Part shown: positions 5,329-16,102 of the stretch, piece by piece | How the letters are laid out: every line of letters begins with the position of its first letter | How positions within the stretch are numbered: the stretch's first letter is position 1 | Virus record (IMG/VR): IMGVR_UViG_3300046454_000269 | Coordinates: 1-26,460 of that record | DNA length: 26,460 bases | Source: a virus | Direction: 5' to 3' (one strand) | The notes under the pieces: generated by a model | The model's input: only the letters and a program-made list of their open reading frames with translations | Databases searched by the model: none | What the model was told of the DNA's origin: nothing | Translations under genes and position numbers: made by a program

Positions 5329-6675
5329 ATGGCAGCAGTCGAAGACACCCCGAAGTACGGGGAGAAAGTCAACGCCTACAACACCGCCTGCGCGAACGTC
5401 GACGCTCGCCACAAGGCGATCGAGGACGCCAAAGCCGACGAGTCGATGACTCAGGAGCAGCGCGACAAGCTGATCGAGGAGTTCACCGGCGCGGTCGAGC
5501 AGCGCGACAAGCTGTACGACGAGCTCCGCAGCGCCGAGGCGCTCGAGCGGGCACGGGAGCAGCACAAGCCGCTCCAGCTGGCCGGGAAAACGTTCCAGGT
5601 GAAAGAGCCGGACATCTACGAGGCCGGCGGCCGCTCGTTCCTCACCGACCTGTATTTCGCCCAGCTGAAGCAGAGCACCGAGGCGAGCGAGCGGATCAAC
5701 AAGCACCAGCATTACGAGATCGAGAAGCGCGCGGTGACGAGCTCGACGCTCGGCGGGATCATCCCGCCCGCGTACCTCGTCGACATGTACGCGAAGGCGT
5801 CCCGGAATGGACGCGTGTTCGCGGACCAGTGCAACAACCAGACGCTCCCCGACGTCGGCATGTCCGTCGTCGTGCCGAGACTGACGGCCGGCACCACCGC
5901 GGCCGCCCAGACGACGCAGAACACCGCCGTGGTGACCCAGGACCCCACCGAGGTCGACCTGAGCGTCCCCGTCAACACCGTCAGCGGCTACAGCCCCGTC
6001 TCGAGGCAAGCGATCGAACGGGCCGCCTACTCGGATCAGATCCTGTTCGAGGACCTGATCGCCCGCTACTGGGCCGTGTTGGACTCGTACTGCATCAACG
6101 GCTCCGGGGCGAGCAACCAGCCGGTCGGGCTGCTCGGCACCTCTTCGATCTCCGCGTCGACCGCGTCGACGGCGACCGTTGCTGGGGTGTGGCCGAAGAT
6201 CGCCGACGTGATCCAGCAGATCAACACCGCGGTCGGAGGGCTCGGGTACACCGCCACGAAGATCTTCATGCACCCGCGCAGGTGGGGGTTCTTCGAGGCT
6301 GCGCTCGACTCGTCGAACCGGCCGCTGATCGTCGCGTCCGGGCCGGTGTTCAACGCGATCGGCACCGACTCGAACCGGCAGCCCGACTACGGCCTCGTCG
6401 GGAACATGCACGGGCTCCCCGTCTACACCGACGCGAACATCCCGACCACGCTCGGGGCGACCACGAACGCCGACGCGATCATCGTGATCGCCGACCCCGT
6501 CGTGCACCTGTGGGAACGCGGCAGCGACCCGGTCACATTGTCGTTCGAGCAGCAGGCCGGCACCTCACTTCAGGTGCAGCTGATCGTGTTCGGGTACATC
6601 GCGTTCACCGCGGGCCGGTACCCGGGCGCGTCCGGTGCCGTCACCGGCGCCGGCCTCGTACCGCCGACGTTCTAG
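5329..6675 (+). CDS. Major capsid protein, HK97 fold
   Basis: 448 residues. Residues 1 to about 100 are highly charged and helical (EQRDKLIEEF, EQRDKLYDELRSAEALERAREQ), matching the HK97 delta or scaffold domain that the protease removes. The rest has the usual capsid landmarks: SSTLGGIIPPAYLVD, ADQCNNQTLPDVGMSVVVPRL, the RQAIERAAYSDQILFEDL spine region, KIFMHPRRWGFFEAAL and GLPVYTDANIPTTLG. Length and position directly after the protease agree. ATG 5329 starts two bases after the protease stop; the open frame upstream reads the protease gene out of frame. Cleavage near residues 100-110 is an inference from the domain boundary. Confidence 0.94.
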   Translation: MAAVEDTPKYGEKVNAYNTACANVDARHKAIEDAKADESMTQEQRDKLIEEFTGAVEQRDKLYDELRSAEALERAREQHKPLQLAGKTFQVKEPDIYEAGGRSFLTDLYFAQLKQSTEASERINKHQHYEIEKRAVTSSTLGGIIPPAYLVDMYAKASRNGRVFADQCNNQTLPDVGMSVVVPRLTAGTTAAAQTTQNTAVVTQDPTEVDLSVPVNTVSGYSPVSRQAIERAAYSDQILFEDLIARYWAVLDSYCINGSGASNQPVGLLGTSSISASTASTATVAGVWPKIADVIQQINTAVGGLGYTATKIFMHPRRWGFFEAALDSSNRPLIVASGPVFNAIGTDSNRQPDYGLVGNMHGLPVYTDANIPTTLGATTNADAIIVIADPVVHLWERGSDPVTLSFEQQAGTSLQVQLIVFGYIAFTAGRYPGASGAVTGAGLVPPTF

Positions 6676-6690
6676 GCCGGAACAGGCAAA

Positions 6691-6723
6691 TGGTGGGGGG
6701 TCACCTCCGCGACCCCCCCACCA
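6691..6723 (+). terminator. Strong hairpin after the capsid gene
   Basis: The 12-base arm TGGTGGGGGGTC (6691-6702) pairs with GACCCCCCCACCA (6711-6723) with a single-base bulge, around an 8-base loop. It begins 15 bases after the capsid stop. There is no U-run, so it may act as an attenuator or mRNA-stabilising structure that keeps capsid mRNA more abundant than the genes downstream, rather than as a full terminator. Confidence 0.6.
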
Positions 6724-6746
6724 ACCCTTCCCGAGAGGAGAGCCGA

Positions 6747-7001
6747 ATGGCAAAAGAGCCGCCGTACTACCCGCCGAACTTCGCTGACGCGGCCGCGTAC
6801 GCGTCCGCGCTCGAACGGGAGCTCGCCGGTTACCGCGCCAAGATCGCCGAGTGGAAAGCGCAAGGCGCGCAGGACGACGACTCCGTGATCACCGAGGCGC
6901 GCTCCGGTGAGAAAGCCGTTCTCGCCGAGCTGAAACGGGTCGGTCACGGGCAGGAGGTCGCGGAGAAGCGGCCGGCCGCGAAAACAGCGGAGAAACGGTG
7001 A
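6747..7001 (+). CDS. Small charged protein after the capsid
   Basis: 84 residues, not recognised. An N-terminal Pro/Tyr stretch (PPYYPPNFADAAAYASALE) is followed by a helix-forming charged part, and the C-terminus is Lys- and Arg-rich (EKRPAAKTAEKR). The strong ribosome site GAGAGGAG at 6734-6741 fixes ATG 6747. Position between capsid and glycosyltransferase suggests a minor head protein or small assembly factor. The stop overlaps the glycosyltransferase start as GTGA. Confidence 0.7.
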   Translation: MAKEPPYYPPNFADAAAYASALERELAGYRAKIAEWKAQGAQDDDSVITEARSGEKAVLAELKRVGHGQEVAEKRPAAKTAEKR

Positions 7002-7684
7002 GGCACCCACCCGGCGCGGTGATCGTCCCGTGCCAGGAAACAGCCCGGTACCACCGCTTCACGATCTCACTCGCGAACCTGGAGCTGCCCACCGGGTCAC
7101 AACGGATCTTCGGGATCGGCACCAGCATCGTCACGAACCTGAACGACTCGATCCGTGCGCTCCGCGACGAGGACGAATGGGTGTGGATCGTCGGCGACGA
7201 CCACGTCTTCCAGGCCGACACACTCACCCGCCTCCTCGACCGCGACGCCGACATGATCGTCCCGTTGTGCGTCAGGCGGGGGCCGCCGTTCCCACTCGTG
7301 CATTACGGCGACCCGGTCGACGAGGACAGCCCGTACCGGCGGGTGATGCAGTTCGACTATCTCCCCGACAACGACGACCCGTTCGAGGTGCAAGCCACCG
7401 GATCGCTGCCGCTGATCCGCAGGCACGTCCTGGACGAGGTCGGCGACCCGTGGTTCGAGAACACCCCAGGTCGGATGGACGAGGAGTTCGGGTTCTGCGC
7501 CAAAGTTCGCGCCGCGGGGTTCAGGGTGCTCGTCGACCCGAGTGTGACGGTCGGGCATATCGGTGAGATCGTCACCTACCCGCAACGAGGCAGCGACGGG
7601 TGGGGACTGACGGTCGAGTTCGTCGGTGCCGACAAGCACGAGGTTTTCTATCCCGGCGGGATGCGTGAAGGAGTGAGAGCGTGA
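6998..7684 (+). CDS. Second glycosyltransferase (GT-A fold)
   Basis: 228 residues. The WVWIVGDDHVF segment has the acidic GDD (66-68) at the DxD position after a hydrophobic strand. ATGSLPLIRRHVLDEVGDPWFE and GRMDEEFGFCAKVRAAGFRV are the usual acceptor/catalytic region of GT-A enzymes, with D161 or E162 as the likely base. VDPSVTVGHIG closes the fold with a His that often binds metal. No membrane segment is seen. It differs clearly from the first glycosyltransferase at 2417-3106. It begins by a GTGA overlap and ends by another, so it is translated together with its neighbours in the structural operon. Transfer of a sugar to virion proteins is the favoured inference; the substrate is unknown. 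Confidence 0.85.
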   Translation: MRHPPGAVIVPCQETARYHRFTISLANLELPTGSQRIFGIGTSIVTNLNDSIRALRDEDEWVWIVGDDHVFQADTLTRLLDRDADMIVPLCVRRGPPFPLVHYGDPVDEDSPYRRVMQFDYLPDNDDPFEVQATGSLPLIRRHVLDEVGDPWFENTPGRMDEEFGFCAKVRAAGFRVLVDPSVTVGHIGEIVTYPQRGSDGWGLTVEFVGADKHEVFYPGGMREGVRA

Positions 7685-7845
7685 AGGACATGGAAGCGAA
7701 GGTCGGGGTTGAAGAGGTGACGTTGTCGGCGGTCGTGATCCGCGCCGACGGCAGCCGTGAGGACCTCGGAGTGATCGCCGGCTCGGACCTGAGCTGGTGG
7801 CAACGATTGAAGAGGAGGTGGAGGCGTTGGCAACCGTCGTCGTAA
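7681..7845 (+). CDS. Small basic-tailed protein, 54 residues
   Basis: GTG at 7681 overlaps the glycosyltransferase stop as GTGA and the frame runs to TAA at 7843-7845. The protein has a beta-type core (VEEVTLSAVVIRADGSREDLGVIAG) and a striking Trp/Arg-rich end (WWQRLKRRWRRWQPSS). A short frame of this kind, with an xADGxxxDLGV core and a basic aromatic tail, is familiar just upstream of the next gene type in actinophages. The end overlaps the next gene by 19 bases. The basic aromatic tail could bind membrane, nucleic acid or the capsid. Function unknown. Confidence 0.62.
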   Translation: MKDMEAKVGVEEVTLSAVVIRADGSREDLGVIAGSDLSWWQRLKRRWRRWQPSS

Positions 7846-8231
7846 ACGCTGGACGCGACATCATCACGAACCGGCTGAACAGCGCCGGCACGATCCCCCT
7901 GAACATCGGGTGGGGCACCGGAGTGCAAACGACCGCGCTCGTCACCGACACCACATTGGGTCCGACCACGGTCGAGAAGCTCGTCGACCTGACAACCTCG
8001 GCCGGTACCGACCACACGACCGGAGTTGTGACCCGGCAGACGACGACGGTGTCGAACGACACGTTCCAGGTTGTCGGGACGCGGACCGCGACCGGCTCGG
8101 GGGCGGTCACCGTCTCCGGGCTGTTCGACGCAGCCTCCGGCGGGAACCTCTTTGCTAAGGGCGATTTCGCGGCCATCAACCTTGTGTCGGGCGACTCGAT
8201 CCAGTTCACCTGGAAAGTCGTGTTCGCCTAG
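7827..8231 (+). CDS. Beta-rich phage structural protein (fibre/decoration type)
   Basis: 134 residues from TTG 7827. This start is chosen because AGGAGG lies at 7813-7818, eight bases before it, and because the resulting MATVVVNAGRDIITNRLN is the usual opening of the family. Motifs in order are VVVNAGRDIITNRL, a WGTGVQTT turn, VSNDTFQVVGTRTATGSGAVTVSGLFDA and FAAINLVSGDSIQFTWKV. Such proteins are often labelled tail-fibre-like in phage genomes, but their place here, between capsid and head-tail connector, would also fit a capsid decoration or head-fibre protein. A GTG at 7797 would add ten residues. Confidence 0.75.
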   Translation: MATVVVNAGRDIITNRLNSAGTIPLNIGWGTGVQTTALVTDTTLGPTTVEKLVDLTTSAGTDHTTGVVTRQTTTVSNDTFQVVGTRTATGSGAVTVSGLFDAASGGNLFAKGDFAAINLVSGDSIQFTWKVVFA

Positions 8232-8239
8232 TTCTCTAG

Positions 8240-8929
8240 ATGGCGTTCTACGTTCGTGACAACAAGACCGGGACGCTGACGATCTCGACGGGGACGTGGG
8301 CGCTCGGCACCCTCACGAACACCCCCACGGCGGCGAACACCTTGACGCTCGAGCTCGCGTGGAACGGTGCCGACACCGTCGCCGCCGCCGGTGTCGCTGA
8401 CAGCGCCGGGAATACCTGGACGCAGGTTCAGCAGGCCGCGGAGACAACCGGGGCGGTTATTCGCACCGGGATGTGGTACACGCAAATGAACATTGGTGCC
8501 CCCACCACCGTCACGATCACCGCGACCCACACGACCGGCAACAAGATCCTGTTTGCCGTCAGGGAGTGGGCGGGGAAGTTGGTGCTCGACCAGTCGCAGC
8601 CGCGCGTGCAGACAACAACGGTGACCGCCGTCACGACTGGCACCACCGGGACGACAACGCAGCCGGTCGAGTTCGCATTGGCGATGTTCGGCCTGAGCAC
8701 GGCGCAGACGGTGTGGACGCCCGACGCGACCTACCTGTCCCCGACCACGAACCTGTCCTCGGACGTGACCCAGGCGCGTGCGCTCGCGTCCGAGTACAAG
8801 GAGCTCAGCTCGACCGGGACGCAGACCGCAACAGGGACGGTCGGCACCACCTGCCTGAACGCGGCGATCATCGGAACGTTCATGCAGCTGCCGATCCCGG
8901 ATGTCGGCATGGCCCTCACCGTCAGCTAG
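8240..8929 (+). CDS. Beta-sandwich structural protein, unknown
   Basis: 229 residues, very rich in Thr, Ala, Gly and Val with alternating beta-strand patterns (GTLTISTGTWALGTLTN, TTVTITATHTTGNKILFAVREWAG). The middle resembles extracellular or phage beta-sandwich domains in which an AVREWAG strand follows a run of Thr. No signal peptide or membrane segment is seen. No ribosome-binding site is obvious; ATG 8240 lies eight bases after the previous stop, so coupled translation is likely. Probably a virion surface protein. A Pro/Met-containing end (MQLPIPDVGMALTVS) is followed directly by the next ribosome site. Confidence 0.7.
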   Translation: MAFYVRDNKTGTLTISTGTWALGTLTNTPTAANTLTLELAWNGADTVAAAGVADSAGNTWTQVQQAAETTGAVIRTGMWYTQMNIGAPTTVTITATHTTGNKILFAVREWAGKLVLDQSQPRVQTTTVTAVTTGTTGTTTQPVEFALAMFGLSTAQTVWTPDATYLSPTTNLSSDVTQARALASEYKELSSTGTQTATGTVGTTCLNAAIIGTFMQLPIPDVGMALTVS

Positions 8930-9380: not shown

Positions 9381-9443
9381 ATGAGCCAGCTGACCCGGGC
9401 GGTCCCGCAACCCGGGTTGCGGCAGCCCGGGTCGAGCTTCTAA
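9381..9443 (+). CDS. 20-codon mini-ORF in frame with the repeat protein
   Basis: ATG 9381 begins one base after the previous TGA, so re-initiation is plausible. It encodes MSQLTRAVPQPGLRQPGSSF and ends at TAA 9441-9443. The same frame then stays open to 10343 as the tandem-repeat protein. The mini-ORF is largely made of the palindrome at 9392-9433. It could be a leader peptide, the original N-terminus of the repeat protein cut by a nonsense change, or a readthrough product. Expression is not shown. Confidence 0.35.
   Translation: MSQLTRAVPQPGLRQPGSSF
9392..9433 (+). repeat. Nested palindrome / large hairpin with three CCCGGG cores
   Basis: The outer arms GACCCGGGC (9392-9400) and GCCCGGGTC (9425-9433) pair perfectly. 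Between them is a perfect 18-base palindrome, CCGCAACCCGGGTTGCGG, at 9405-9422. RNA from either strand can fold into a long GC-rich stem. No U-run follows, so it is not a classic terminator. It lies 8 bases before the TAA of the mini-ORF and 56 bases before the TTG of the repeat protein, a position suited to controlling translation or partial termination. Confidence 0.75.
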
Positions 9444-9488
9444 CATACCCGGCCCGTCGCTGGTGGAGGCACCACCAACCCGCAAGCG

Positions 9489-10343
9489 TTGACCGCGGAC
9501 ACCGTTCTCGTCACCGCGACACTCCAGAAGCAAACGAACAAGAACGCGACCGCGACCGCCGTGGTCGTCACGGCGACGGTCGCGAAGCAAGTCAGCAGAA
9601 CGGTGACCGCGACCACGGTTGTCGTGACCGCGTCGCTCACGCAGATCAAGGTCGTTCTTAAAGCCTTGACCGCGACGACGGTGGCGGTCACAGCGTCACT
9701 GACCAAACAAGCGAACAAGCCGTTGACGGCGACAACGGTCGCTGTCACCGCCAGTCTCGTCAGACGGGTCAACAAGACCGTGACGGCGACAGCGGTCGTG
9801 GTGACCGCGTCGCTCGCGCAGATCAAGGTGATCCTTCGCACCCTGACCGCGACAACCGTCGCGGTGACCGCCAGCGTGGTGCGGCAGGCGAACAAGCCGC
9901 TGGGAGCCGCCACGGTCGCTGCTACCGCGTCAGTAGCGAAACAGGTAGGCAAGAAACTGACCGCAACCGCCGTCGCTGTCACAGCGACGCTCACCGCGGT
10001 CCGGGTGTTCCTGAGAATCCTGACCGCGACCACCGTTGTCGTCACCGCGTCGGTGAGCCGGCGTGTCGCGAAACCGCTGTCGGCCACCGTGGCGGCCACC
10101 GCGACCCTGGCGAAGCAGTTCCCGAAGGTGTTGATCGCGACCGTCACGGTGACCGGGTCGCTTGTCGCGCAGTTCGTGTCCGCGTTCATCGTCTACATCA
10201 CCGACCGGTTCCAGAGCAACGCGAACGCCTCCACCACCACCACGCCGGCGATGAACGGGTTCGACAGCGCCGACCCTGACGACAGCACGGCGACCTCGCC
10301 CACCAGCACCGCTTTCGACCCGCAGGAGCCGCATCTTGGTTGA
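9489..10343 (+). CDS. Thr/Val/Ala-rich tandem-repeat protein (putative fibre)
   Basis: 284 residues if read from TTG 9489. Residues 2-235 are twelve units of 18-21 residues with the consensus TATTVxVTASLxxQxNKxL. Residues 236-284 form a polar Ser/Thr/Asp/Pro tail. Each unit looks like a beta-strand pair with alternating Thr/Val and a short basic turn, as in fibrous beta-structures of phage fibres. The units also follow a higher order of three (19, 19, 21 residues). No ribosome site is well placed: GGTGGAGG at 9461-9468 is 20 bases off, and no other in-frame start exists after the TAA at 9441. The start is therefore uncertain. It overlaps the connector gene by 8 bases. Family not recognised; a head- or tail-attached fibre or adhesin is the best inference. 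Confidence 0.68.
   Translation: MTADTVLVTATLQKQTNKNATATAVVVTATVAKQVSRTVTATTVVVTASLTQIKVVLKALTATTVAVTASLTKQANKPLTATTVAVTASLVRRVNKTVTATAVVVTASLAQIKVILRTLTATTVAVTASVVRQANKPLGAATVAATASVAKQVGKKLTATAVAVTATLTAVRVFLRILTATTVVVTASVSRRVAKPLSATVAATATLAKQFPKVLIATVTVTGSLVAQFVSAFIVYITDRFQSNANASTTTTPAMNGFDSADPDDSTATSPTSTAFDPQEPHLG
9492..10193 (+). repeat. Coding tandem repeats with a 177-base super-repeat
   Basis: Twelve units of 57 or 63 bases (one of 54, the last irregular). They group as four super-units: 9492-9668, 9669-9845, 9846-10022 (each 177 bases, 59 codons) and 10023-10193 (171 bases). As an anchor, GCAGATCAAG occurs at 9641-9650 and again at 9818-9827, exactly 177 bases apart. Units 3, 6 and 9 carry a distinct hydrophobic end (QIKVVLKAL, QIKVILRTL, AVRVFLRIL). 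Confidence 0.85.
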
Positions 10344-13620: not shown

Positions 13621-16102
13621 CGTCAAGGTTTTCCTGCTCGGCGACGCGTCGAGCCTCCAGCGCGCCTATCGTGCCGCGTCGGAAGCAACCAAGACGTTCG
13701 GGAAGCACGCCGAAACGTCGACGAGCAAAGTCAAAGGGCTCGAGCGCGGACTCACGTCCGGCACAAGCTCGCTCCACGCGTTCGCGAAGTCGGCGATCCT
13801 CGCCGGCGGAGCCTTGGTCGGCGCCGGCAGCGTCTACGAAGGCTTGAAGCTCACCGTCGACGCCGCGGAGGGGTTCAACGTCGCGCAACGGCAGCTACAG
13901 GCCCAGTTGAAAGCGAACGGCGAGAGCTTCAAGGCGGTTGCGCCGTGGGTCGAGAAGCTCCGCTCGAGCCAGGAGCAGCTCGGGTTCGACATGACCCAGA
14001 CGACCGACGCGTTCACGAAACTCGACCGTGCGTCCGGGAGTGCGGCGGTCGCGTACAAGTACATGAGCACCGCGTCGGATCTCGCCCGCACCCGCAACAT
14101 CGACCTCGGCCTGGCGGCGCAGCTCGTCGGGAAGATCATTCAGGGCAACACGTCGGCGCTGAACCGGTTCGGGATCATCCTCCCGAAGAACATCAATGCG
14201 ACGCAGGCGCTTGCGATCGTGAACAAACGACTCGCCGGCCAGGCCGCCGCGGCGGTGACGCCGTTCAACAAGCTTCACGCAGCCCTCCACGACGTCGAGA
14301 TCCAGATCGGGAACGCGCTGATGCCGACGATCACCCGGTACCTCGACAAGGTGACCGCGTGGCTGTCGCAGGCGAAGAACCAGCAACGGATCATCGACTT
14401 CGTCAAGGCCGCCGTCCGCGACCTCGTCCACTGGGTGAAGGTCGCGACCGGGATCTTCGAGGACATGCTCCCCACGTTGAAGAAGATCGGCGACCTGTTC
14501 ATCACCGGCGTCAAGACCGCGATCGACGGGGCAAGAAAAGCGTTCGACTTTCTCGCGAAGACGTTCGGGAAGCACAAGGCCGAGATGATCCTCGGGATCG
14601 CCGCGATCGGGATCGCGATCACCCTTGCGATCGGCCCAGAGGCCGCCGCGATCGTCGGTGCGATCGTCGCGCTCGGGTACATCAAAGACCACTGGGGCAC
14701 GCTCGTCGGGTTCTTCAAGACGCTGGGCCAGGAGATCAACAACTCGTTCGTCTGGTTGTGGGACCAGATCAAGATCGGCGCGCTGAAAGCCGGTCTGGAG
14801 ATCGTGAAGGCGTTCGACTTCACGATCCTCGGACACCACATCATCCCCGGTGTTCACAGCCTCGTCACCTCGATACAGGCCGAGATCGACTCGATCCATC
14901 CGCCGAACATGAACTGGTCCGCCGCGGCGCTTCAGGCTGGCGTGGCGACCGGGAGCGCGTACGGCACCGGCTTCGACCTCGGCGCCCGCGCCGCGTCGAC
15001 AGCCGCGATAGCGGCAGCATCAGCGGCCATCCCGGCGGCCGCGACCGCTCCCGGCGCCACGACCGTTCCCGGTGACACGTCCGTGGTCGGTGACGCCGCC
15101 TTCGCCGCTAAGGCAGCCGCTGCCGCCGAGAAAGCCCGCCAGAAGGCCGAGAGGGCACGCGAGGCCGCGATGAGGAAAGCACGCGCCGCGGCGAAGAGAG
15201 CCGCTGCCGCCGCGAAGAGGCATGCCGCGCTGATAGCCCGCGAGTACGCCCAGGGAATCGCGACGACCGTCGCCGGGATCGAAGGCACGCTGAAGCAGGC
15301 TCGAGCGTCAGCATCGAAAACGGAGCCGCTCGGGAAGGGCAGCACCAGCCCGCTCCGCGAGGTGTACGACCGGCTGATCGCCGAAGCCGAGAAAGAAGCG
15401 AAAGACCCGAAGCTCAGCCTGGCGCTCCGCACGAAGTACCGCTCACTCGCGGCGTCCGAGAAAGCTCAGCTCACGTCGGCGATCATCGCGCACCGAAAGG
15501 CCGCTGCCACTGCTGCTGCTGCCGCGGCGAAGAAGGCGGCGAAGGAAACCCAGTCGGCGCAGTTCGTCGCGCTCGGCCTCGGGGCGTCCGGCACCGGCCA
15601 GTCGCCGTTGAAGGAGACGCTCGCGAAGGAGCTTGCCCGGATCAAGAAATCATTGACCGGGACGATCCTCGACACCAACAAGAACACGCATCTGTTGACG
15701 CAGATCGGGAAGGTGCTCGCGGGGCAGTGGGGCACGTTGACCGACAAGACCCGGGCTGCGATCCGGAAGCTCCTCGACACGATCGACGGCGAGCTGAAGA
15801 AGCAGAAGCCCGGGTACGGCCCCTTGGGTCGTGTCGTCTCCGCCGAGTCGCTCGCCGCGAAGTTCGTCCAGCCGGGGCAGCGGAAAGCCGCTGAGATGGC
15901 GTTCGCGCAGGCGATCGCGCACAAGGGCTACGTCGCGGCCGGCCCGACGTTGCAGGGCGTCCCGACCGTGATCCACACCCATGTTCACCTGGACGGGAAA
16001 CAGATCGCGCATTCCGTCACGACCCATCAGGAGCAGCTCGGCCGCTACAAGGCACCACAGCATCGCGACCTCAACGCCGGCCGCGGACGCTACGCACCCT
16101 AA
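13613..16102 (+). CDS. Tape measure protein
   Basis: 829 residues. It sets tail length; at about 1.5 angstrom per residue the tail would be roughly 120 nm. The N-terminus MPDVKVFLLGDASSLQRAYRAAS, followed by LAGGALVGAGSVYEGLKLTV, is the usual opening. Residues about 100-250 match the helical PWVEKLR...ITRYLDKVTAWL region. Residues about 325-357 are hydrophobic (GIAAIGIAITLAIGPEAAAIVGAIVALG) and could cross the host membrane during DNA injection. An Ala/Lys/Arg-rich helix lies near 490-545. The C-terminus contains a His-rich HTHVHLDGKQIAHSVTTHQEQLG. GTG 13613 overlaps the chaperone extension, a usual arrangement. Confidence 0.92.
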   Translation: MPDVKVFLLGDASSLQRAYRAASEATKTFGKHAETSTSKVKGLERGLTSGTSSLHAFAKSAILAGGALVGAGSVYEGLKLTVDAAEGFNVAQRQLQAQLKANGESFKAVAPWVEKLRSSQEQLGFDMTQTTDAFTKLDRASGSAAVAYKYMSTASDLARTRNIDLGLAAQLVGKIIQGNTSALNRFGIILPKNINATQALAIVNKRLAGQAAAAVTPFNKLHAALHDVEIQIGNALMPTITRYLDKVTAWLSQAKNQQRIIDFVKAAVRDLVHWVKVATGIFEDMLPTLKKIGDLFITGVKTAIDGARKAFDFLAKTFGKHKAEMILGIAAIGIAITLAIGPEAAAIVGAIVALGYIKDHWGTLVGFFKTLGQEINNSFVWLWDQIKIGALKAGLEIVKAFDFTILGHHIIPGVHSLVTSIQAEIDSIHPPNMNWSAAALQAGVATGSAYGTGFDLGARAASTAAIAAASAAIPAAATAPGATTVPGDTSVVGDAAFAAKAAAAAEKARQKAERAREAAMRKARAAAKRAAAAAKRHAALIAREYAQGIATTVAGIEGTLKQARASASKTEPLGKGSTSPLREVYDRLIAEAEKEAKDPKLSLALRTKYRSLAASEKAQLTSAIIAHRKAAATAAAAAAKKAAKETQSAQFVALGLGASGTGQSPLKETLAKELARIKKSLTGTILDTNKNTHLLTQIGKVLAGQWGTLTDKTRAAIRKLLDTIDGELKKQKPGYGPLGRVVSAESLAAKFVQPGQRKAAEMAFAQAIAHKGYVAAGPTLQGVPTVIHTHVHLDGKQIAHSVTTHQEQLGRYKAPQHRDLNAGRGRYAP

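Follow-up and report, generated by a model that had tools for sequence, protein, structure and literature searches.

The DNA analysed here, hereafter the window, is the whole 26,460-base virus record IMGVR_UViG_3300046454_000269, in which annotation recovers a tailed-phage gene order of terminase, portal, protease, HK97-type capsid protein, small head genes, head–tail connector, tape measure, and integrase. The nearest matches of its terminase are actinobacteriophage terminases at ~34% identity, so the window is likely a phage contig with an actinobacterial host. A gene for a tandem-repeat protein is placed between the capsid and connector genes, i.e., within the head module. The tape measure gene also contains short tandem repeats, one of 18 bases (15030–15083) and one of 21 bases (15164–15230), and a glycosyltransferase-like gene (6998–7684; PF13641 below threshold) lies between the capsid gene and a small gene that we call the partner gene. 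The features discussed below are as follows.

7797–8231, plus strand: partner gene for a small virion-type protein, phrog_5417, adjacent to the repeat gene in most loci of the family
9381–9443, plus strand: probable true start (ATG 9381) and leader, in the same frame as the repeats and closed by a TAA at 9441–9443
9489–9665, plus strand: super-unit 1, short (19 residues), short (19), long (21), from unit parsing and self-match
9666–9842, plus strand: super-unit 2, short (19), short (19), long (21), from unit parsing and self-match
9843–10019, plus strand: super-unit 3, short (19), short (19), long (21), from unit parsing and self-match
10020–10130, plus strand: the two short units of the last block, from unit parsing
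10131–10193, plus strand: terminal unit LIATVTVTGSLVAQFVSAFIV in place of a long unit, a class of its own that also occurs in relatives
10194–10343, plus strand: acidic C-terminal tail ITDRF...GFDS..P...FDPQEPHLG and stop, common to the related loci L004 and L003
10336–11265, plus strand: head–tail connector with an N-terminal BppU_N domain, overlapping the repeat gene by 8 bases

Direct repeats with a spacing of 57, 57, and 63 bases occur three times between 9483 and 10052. Self-comparison of DNA and protein, proposed as a check in an earlier note on this sequence, gave its strongest signals at lags of 177 bases and 59 residues. DNA identity at the 177-base lag was 0.583 relative to 0.348 ± 0.021 in codon shuffles (z 11, with none of 2000 shuffles reaching the observed value), and protein identity at the 59-residue lag was 0.545 vs 0.142 ± 0.025. 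Parsing resolved 9489–10193 into 12 units spaced by 19, 19, 21, 19, 19, 21, 19, 19, 21, 18, and 18 residues, the twelfth being the terminal unit. The twelve units, the 19-19-21 rhythm, and the three 59-residue (177-base) super-units described in the earlier note are thus confirmed. Its decayed fourth block was partly right: the block does differ, with 18–18 spacing, but its last unit is a distinct, conserved terminal unit that is found in relatives. The repeats do occupy 9489–10193, as first delimited, but the ORF runs to 10343 with a 49-residue non-repeat C-terminal tail, and the TTG 9489 given as its start is probably an artefact. Identity between blocks is 59–68% over the DNA and 44–51% at third codon positions, indicating that the blocks of this gene are old. 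Units follow the pattern V-T-x-T-A-T-[ML], with Thr alternating with Val, Ala, or Leu/Met, and end in [RK]-Q-[VA]-[GN]-K when short and in xAIKVILxxL when long.

The real start is probably ATG 9381, which stands 36 codons 5′ of TTG 9489; in the window the TAA is codon 21 of this frame. A second contig, L002, is identical to the window across 6,797 bases except for four differences, all at 9386–9447. Its reading frame is open through 9381–9443, one of the four differences creating the TAA of the window, and the leader of this open copy ends in GGxTxPQALTA, a motif that recurs in relatives. Because a perfect 18-base palindrome (9405–9422) lies in the middle of the differing stretch, a sequencing or assembly fault is a plausible source of the TAA, with a real broken allele as a possible alternative. 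The cluster of differences as a whole may mark either a hotspot or a fault of assembly. Stop readthrough is not supported, given that the near-identical contig is open at this position. A diversity-generating retroelement target was also considered for the cluster and is likewise not supported, as the window, which may be an incomplete contig, carries no template copy.

A profile of two super-units recovered 42 ORFs from the fetched loci, including that of the window. They derive from viral contigs, a prophage region of Acidaminobacter hydrogenoformans, and a Holophagaceae MAG, the last two both reached via the partner gene, and a few are weak matches with few recognisable units. Two further members were found in public phage records, in Rhizobium phage RHph_TM16 (QIG66716.1) and, more distantly, Myoviridae sp. 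ct2os315. Unit order was counted in 30 non-duplicate proteins with at least seven recognised units each. After a short unit the next unit follows at 18 or 19 residues in 238 of 258 cases, and most of the others are double distances with one unit missed; after a long unit the distance is 20 or 21 residues in 72 of 73. The window protein conforms, with short units of 18 or 19 residues, long units two residues longer, both in order, and the terminal unit of its own class last, and its locus likewise has a phrog_5417-type partner gene and a BppU_N connector close by. The family sharing this short-short-long rhythm is apparently undescribed. The window repeat protein has no at-threshold profile match in Pfam, PHROG, or NCBIfam, a PDB sequence search with this single protein returned no match, and known PDB fibre folds (triple beta-spiral, beta-helix, beta-bracelet) bear no sequence-detectable relation to it. 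A match of the repeat profile to PDB 9e5c (E 0.0034) was biased and was dismissed as composition. Scanning bacterial genomes with repeat peptides gave no match, and tblastn of the repeat proteins against isolated phages found none, a weak negative since repeats of this kind are hidden by low-complexity masking.

The comparison of repeat number between relatives, suggested in the earlier note, yielded 7 to 18 recognised units per protein while the protein ends remain related, and block size proved to vary too. Among 42 intervals between long units in the 30 proteins, two short units intervene 31 times, three 9 times, and one twice; the twelve units of L004 are arranged as 4+4+4, vs 3+3+3+3 in the window. 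Identity is 51% between long units of different phages and about 33% between the long and short units of one protein. Because a long unit is thus more like the long units of other phages than like its short neighbours, the short-short-long block is ancestral and constrained, common to distant phages. Comparison with relatives much strengthens the three-unit super-repeat. Short units are ~56–60% identical within a phage and ~45–50% between phages, indicating that some duplication or homogenisation has followed within individual lineages. The originally proposed growth by duplicating three-unit blocks is thus only half right: units are somewhat more alike within a protein than between phages, but the block itself is ancestral.

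These block sizes bear on the fold. The protein might be a monomeric beta-solenoid with one unit per coil, in which the three-unit block would generate a face every third coil. A length of 18–21 residues is normal for a solenoid coil, and AlphaFold2 monomer models place strands in most units. Solenoids are often well predicted, yet mean pLDDT was only 39.7 for the full-length protein with 6 sequences and 37.8 for two super-units with 15 sequences (40 and 38 when rounded). Such very low confidence despite the inclusion of relatives lends no support to a simple monomeric solenoid. Furthermore, relatives also have four-unit blocks (9 of the 42 intervals between long units) and two-unit blocks (2 of 42), which break a fixed three-coil face and weaken the earlier proposal of a face repeating every third unit. 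We consider the solenoid unlikely. The monomer models fit a fold that depends on oligomerisation, for which they are weak evidence and not proof.

Gene neighbourhood provides a second line of evidence. The partner gene served as an independent probe for family loci, and all 25 that match it over its full length and extend 1.7 kb or more beyond it have a repeat ORF. Two likenesses of the partner fall below threshold: one to PF23140 (podophage GP4 fibre I), where the threshold is the curated one, and one, at E 0.13, to a virion-associated phage protein in PDB 8jou. Scanning bacterial genomes with it gave two matches, and in the order of the Acidaminobacter host it is rare (2 of 148 genomes, one weak). 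On the other side, the connector begins no more than 1.1 kb downstream of the repeat gene in all 26 loci that yielded both and directly adjoins it in 17. The connector ORF matches the BppU_N part too in most of these 26 loci; BppU_N and connector in one gene is an unusual-looking fusion, common to most family loci. Homology between the gene at 8240–8929 and the N-terminal regions fused to some relatives was sought and not supported. Glycosylation of the Thr-rich shaft by the product of 6998–7684 was rejected as a general feature, relatives of that gene being confined to a minority of loci.

The member from RHph_TM16, an isolated phage, was located through its partner gene. Like the window protein, QIG66716.1 (annotated as ‘DUF4082 domain-containing protein’) has short and long units and the terminal unit (..SAIAQFVAAV), with a partner-type gene immediately upstream. 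Cut by eye, its shaft reads 18-18-18-20-18-18-20-18-18-18-20-18-18-20-18-18-18 residues plus a family-type terminal unit. Of its 17 block ends, 15 are Lys or Arg, a result that none of 20,000 shuffles reached but that flatters the pattern because the cuts were placed beforehand. Unlike the window protein, it has 1661 residues, other regions ahead of the shaft, and another C-terminus, and because the gene pair does not lie beside recognisable head genes, the site of the protein on the virion may differ in this phage. That displacement would suit a fibre or adhesin of the tail or baseplate whose gene, in other loci, merely happens to lie in the head module, as would the name of the BppU_N domain, taken from a baseplate protein of a lactococcal phage. 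However, the gene precedes the connector and lies apart from the genes after the tape measure, both in the window and in 25 other loci, and we regard a tail or baseplate site as very unlikely.

Several relatives carry additional domains. A LamG (lectin-like) domain occurs between repeat units in L010 and ahead of the repeats in L054. Several other members have N-terminal regions of 190–320 residues, although part of this length in at least two ORFs (L023 and L032) looks like stop-to-stop extension and is not to be counted as a domain. In the Acidaminobacter prophage (L016:9614–12703), an extra C-terminal domain (phrog_18294, E 3.8e-6) follows the repeats, sitting where the connector gene begins in other loci; the connector of this prophage is short. 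In L003, whose connector is 69% identical, the place of the shaft gene is taken by a proline-rich protein (6670–7995) with repeats around LNGxLA motifs, non-homologous to the repeat shaft and ending in a C-terminal tail of the window type. With another repeat protein at the same place and the same tail, it looks as though the shaft has been exchanged on a fixed end.

In every member counted, the repeat region carries a charge of ~+2 per unit and is almost free of acidic residues (+24 in the window), and in most the C-terminal tail is acidic. A Lys/Arg ladder of this kind, encoded in the head module, could belong to an internal DNA-binding head protein that neutralises packaged DNA or is ejected alongside it. 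The strict beta-type alternation with outward Thr, the acidic tail, and the LamG domains inserted in L010 and fused in L054 are more in keeping with an exposed protein, which makes an internal head protein quite improbable.

We infer that the window gene probably encodes a fibre shaft, oligomeric and beta in structure, located on the virion at the head or the head–tail neck. This reading is suggested by the strict unit order in 30 proteins, by a unit number that varies between related ends, and by Thr/hydrophobic alternation with strands predicted in most units. It is also suggested by the position of the gene between the capsid and connector genes, by the downstream connector (26 of 26), and by the pairing with the partner (25 of 25). 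The below-threshold likeness of the partner to fibre and virion proteins, the LamG domains in L010 and L054, and the apparent exchange in L003 also point toward a fibre. Against it stand the very low confidence of both structural models, the position of the partner likeness below the curated threshold, the RHph_TM16 gene pair apart from recognisable head genes, and the stop near the start of the window's own copy.

In the fibre that we propose, each 18/19-residue unit would form one main beta strand with Val, Ala, and Leu/Met alternating with Thr, and a short unit would finish in a basic turn ([RK]Q.[GN]K). One unit in three, or sometimes in four, would have a hydrophobic segment two residues longer (xAIKVILxxL) in place of the turn, probably a regular structural node. 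Units would be stacked lengthwise, the shaft being most likely a homo-oligomer, with fibre length set by unit number. The terminal unit together with the acidic tail (or the leader) could cap or dock one end of the fibre, a likely anchor being the partner protein (7797–8231) and/or the BppU_N domain of the connector. The LamG-like extra domains of some relatives may bind surface glycans, and together with the basic ladder they suggest a role in adhering to polyanionic or glycan surfaces.

Our broadest proposal is more tentative: that the family may represent a new oligomeric beta-fibre fold with a short/long grammar, in which long units form a repeated node and unit count determines length, used as an exchangeable shaft by phages of unrelated hosts and able to carry sugar-binding domains. 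If true, a strict, simple repeat shaft of variable length would be a new way of building phage fibres. It would also name virion proteins in environmental phages, a prophage, and an isolate that Pfam, PHROG, and NCBIfam models miss, and would offer a natural series (7 to 18 recognised units) for relating unit number to fibre length.

Known fibre systems offer several parallels. The podophage GP4 fibre I (PF23140; PDB 8jou) is weakly like the partner gene only and is unrelated to the repeat protein. The neck fibres of Anabaena myophage A-1(L), composed of gp82, gp81, and gp80, are repetitive and trimeric, and their distal component bears a carbohydrate-binding module (PMC10966104); unlike the window shaft, they form a bead chain of many separate gp81 trimers and not units of one chain. 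The phi29 head fibre gp8.5 is elongated and aids attachment (PMC7602432), but its shaft is an alpha-helical coiled coil whereas that of the window is predicted to be beta. Orsay virus delta is a head fibre with a repeated beta shaft of the beta-bracelet fold (PMC7565637); it differs in being pentameric and from a nematode virus, and the PDB search with the repeat profile gave no match to it. By analogy rather than by sequence membership, the window shaft may work as the known head and neck fibres of A-1(L), phi29, and Orsay virus do.
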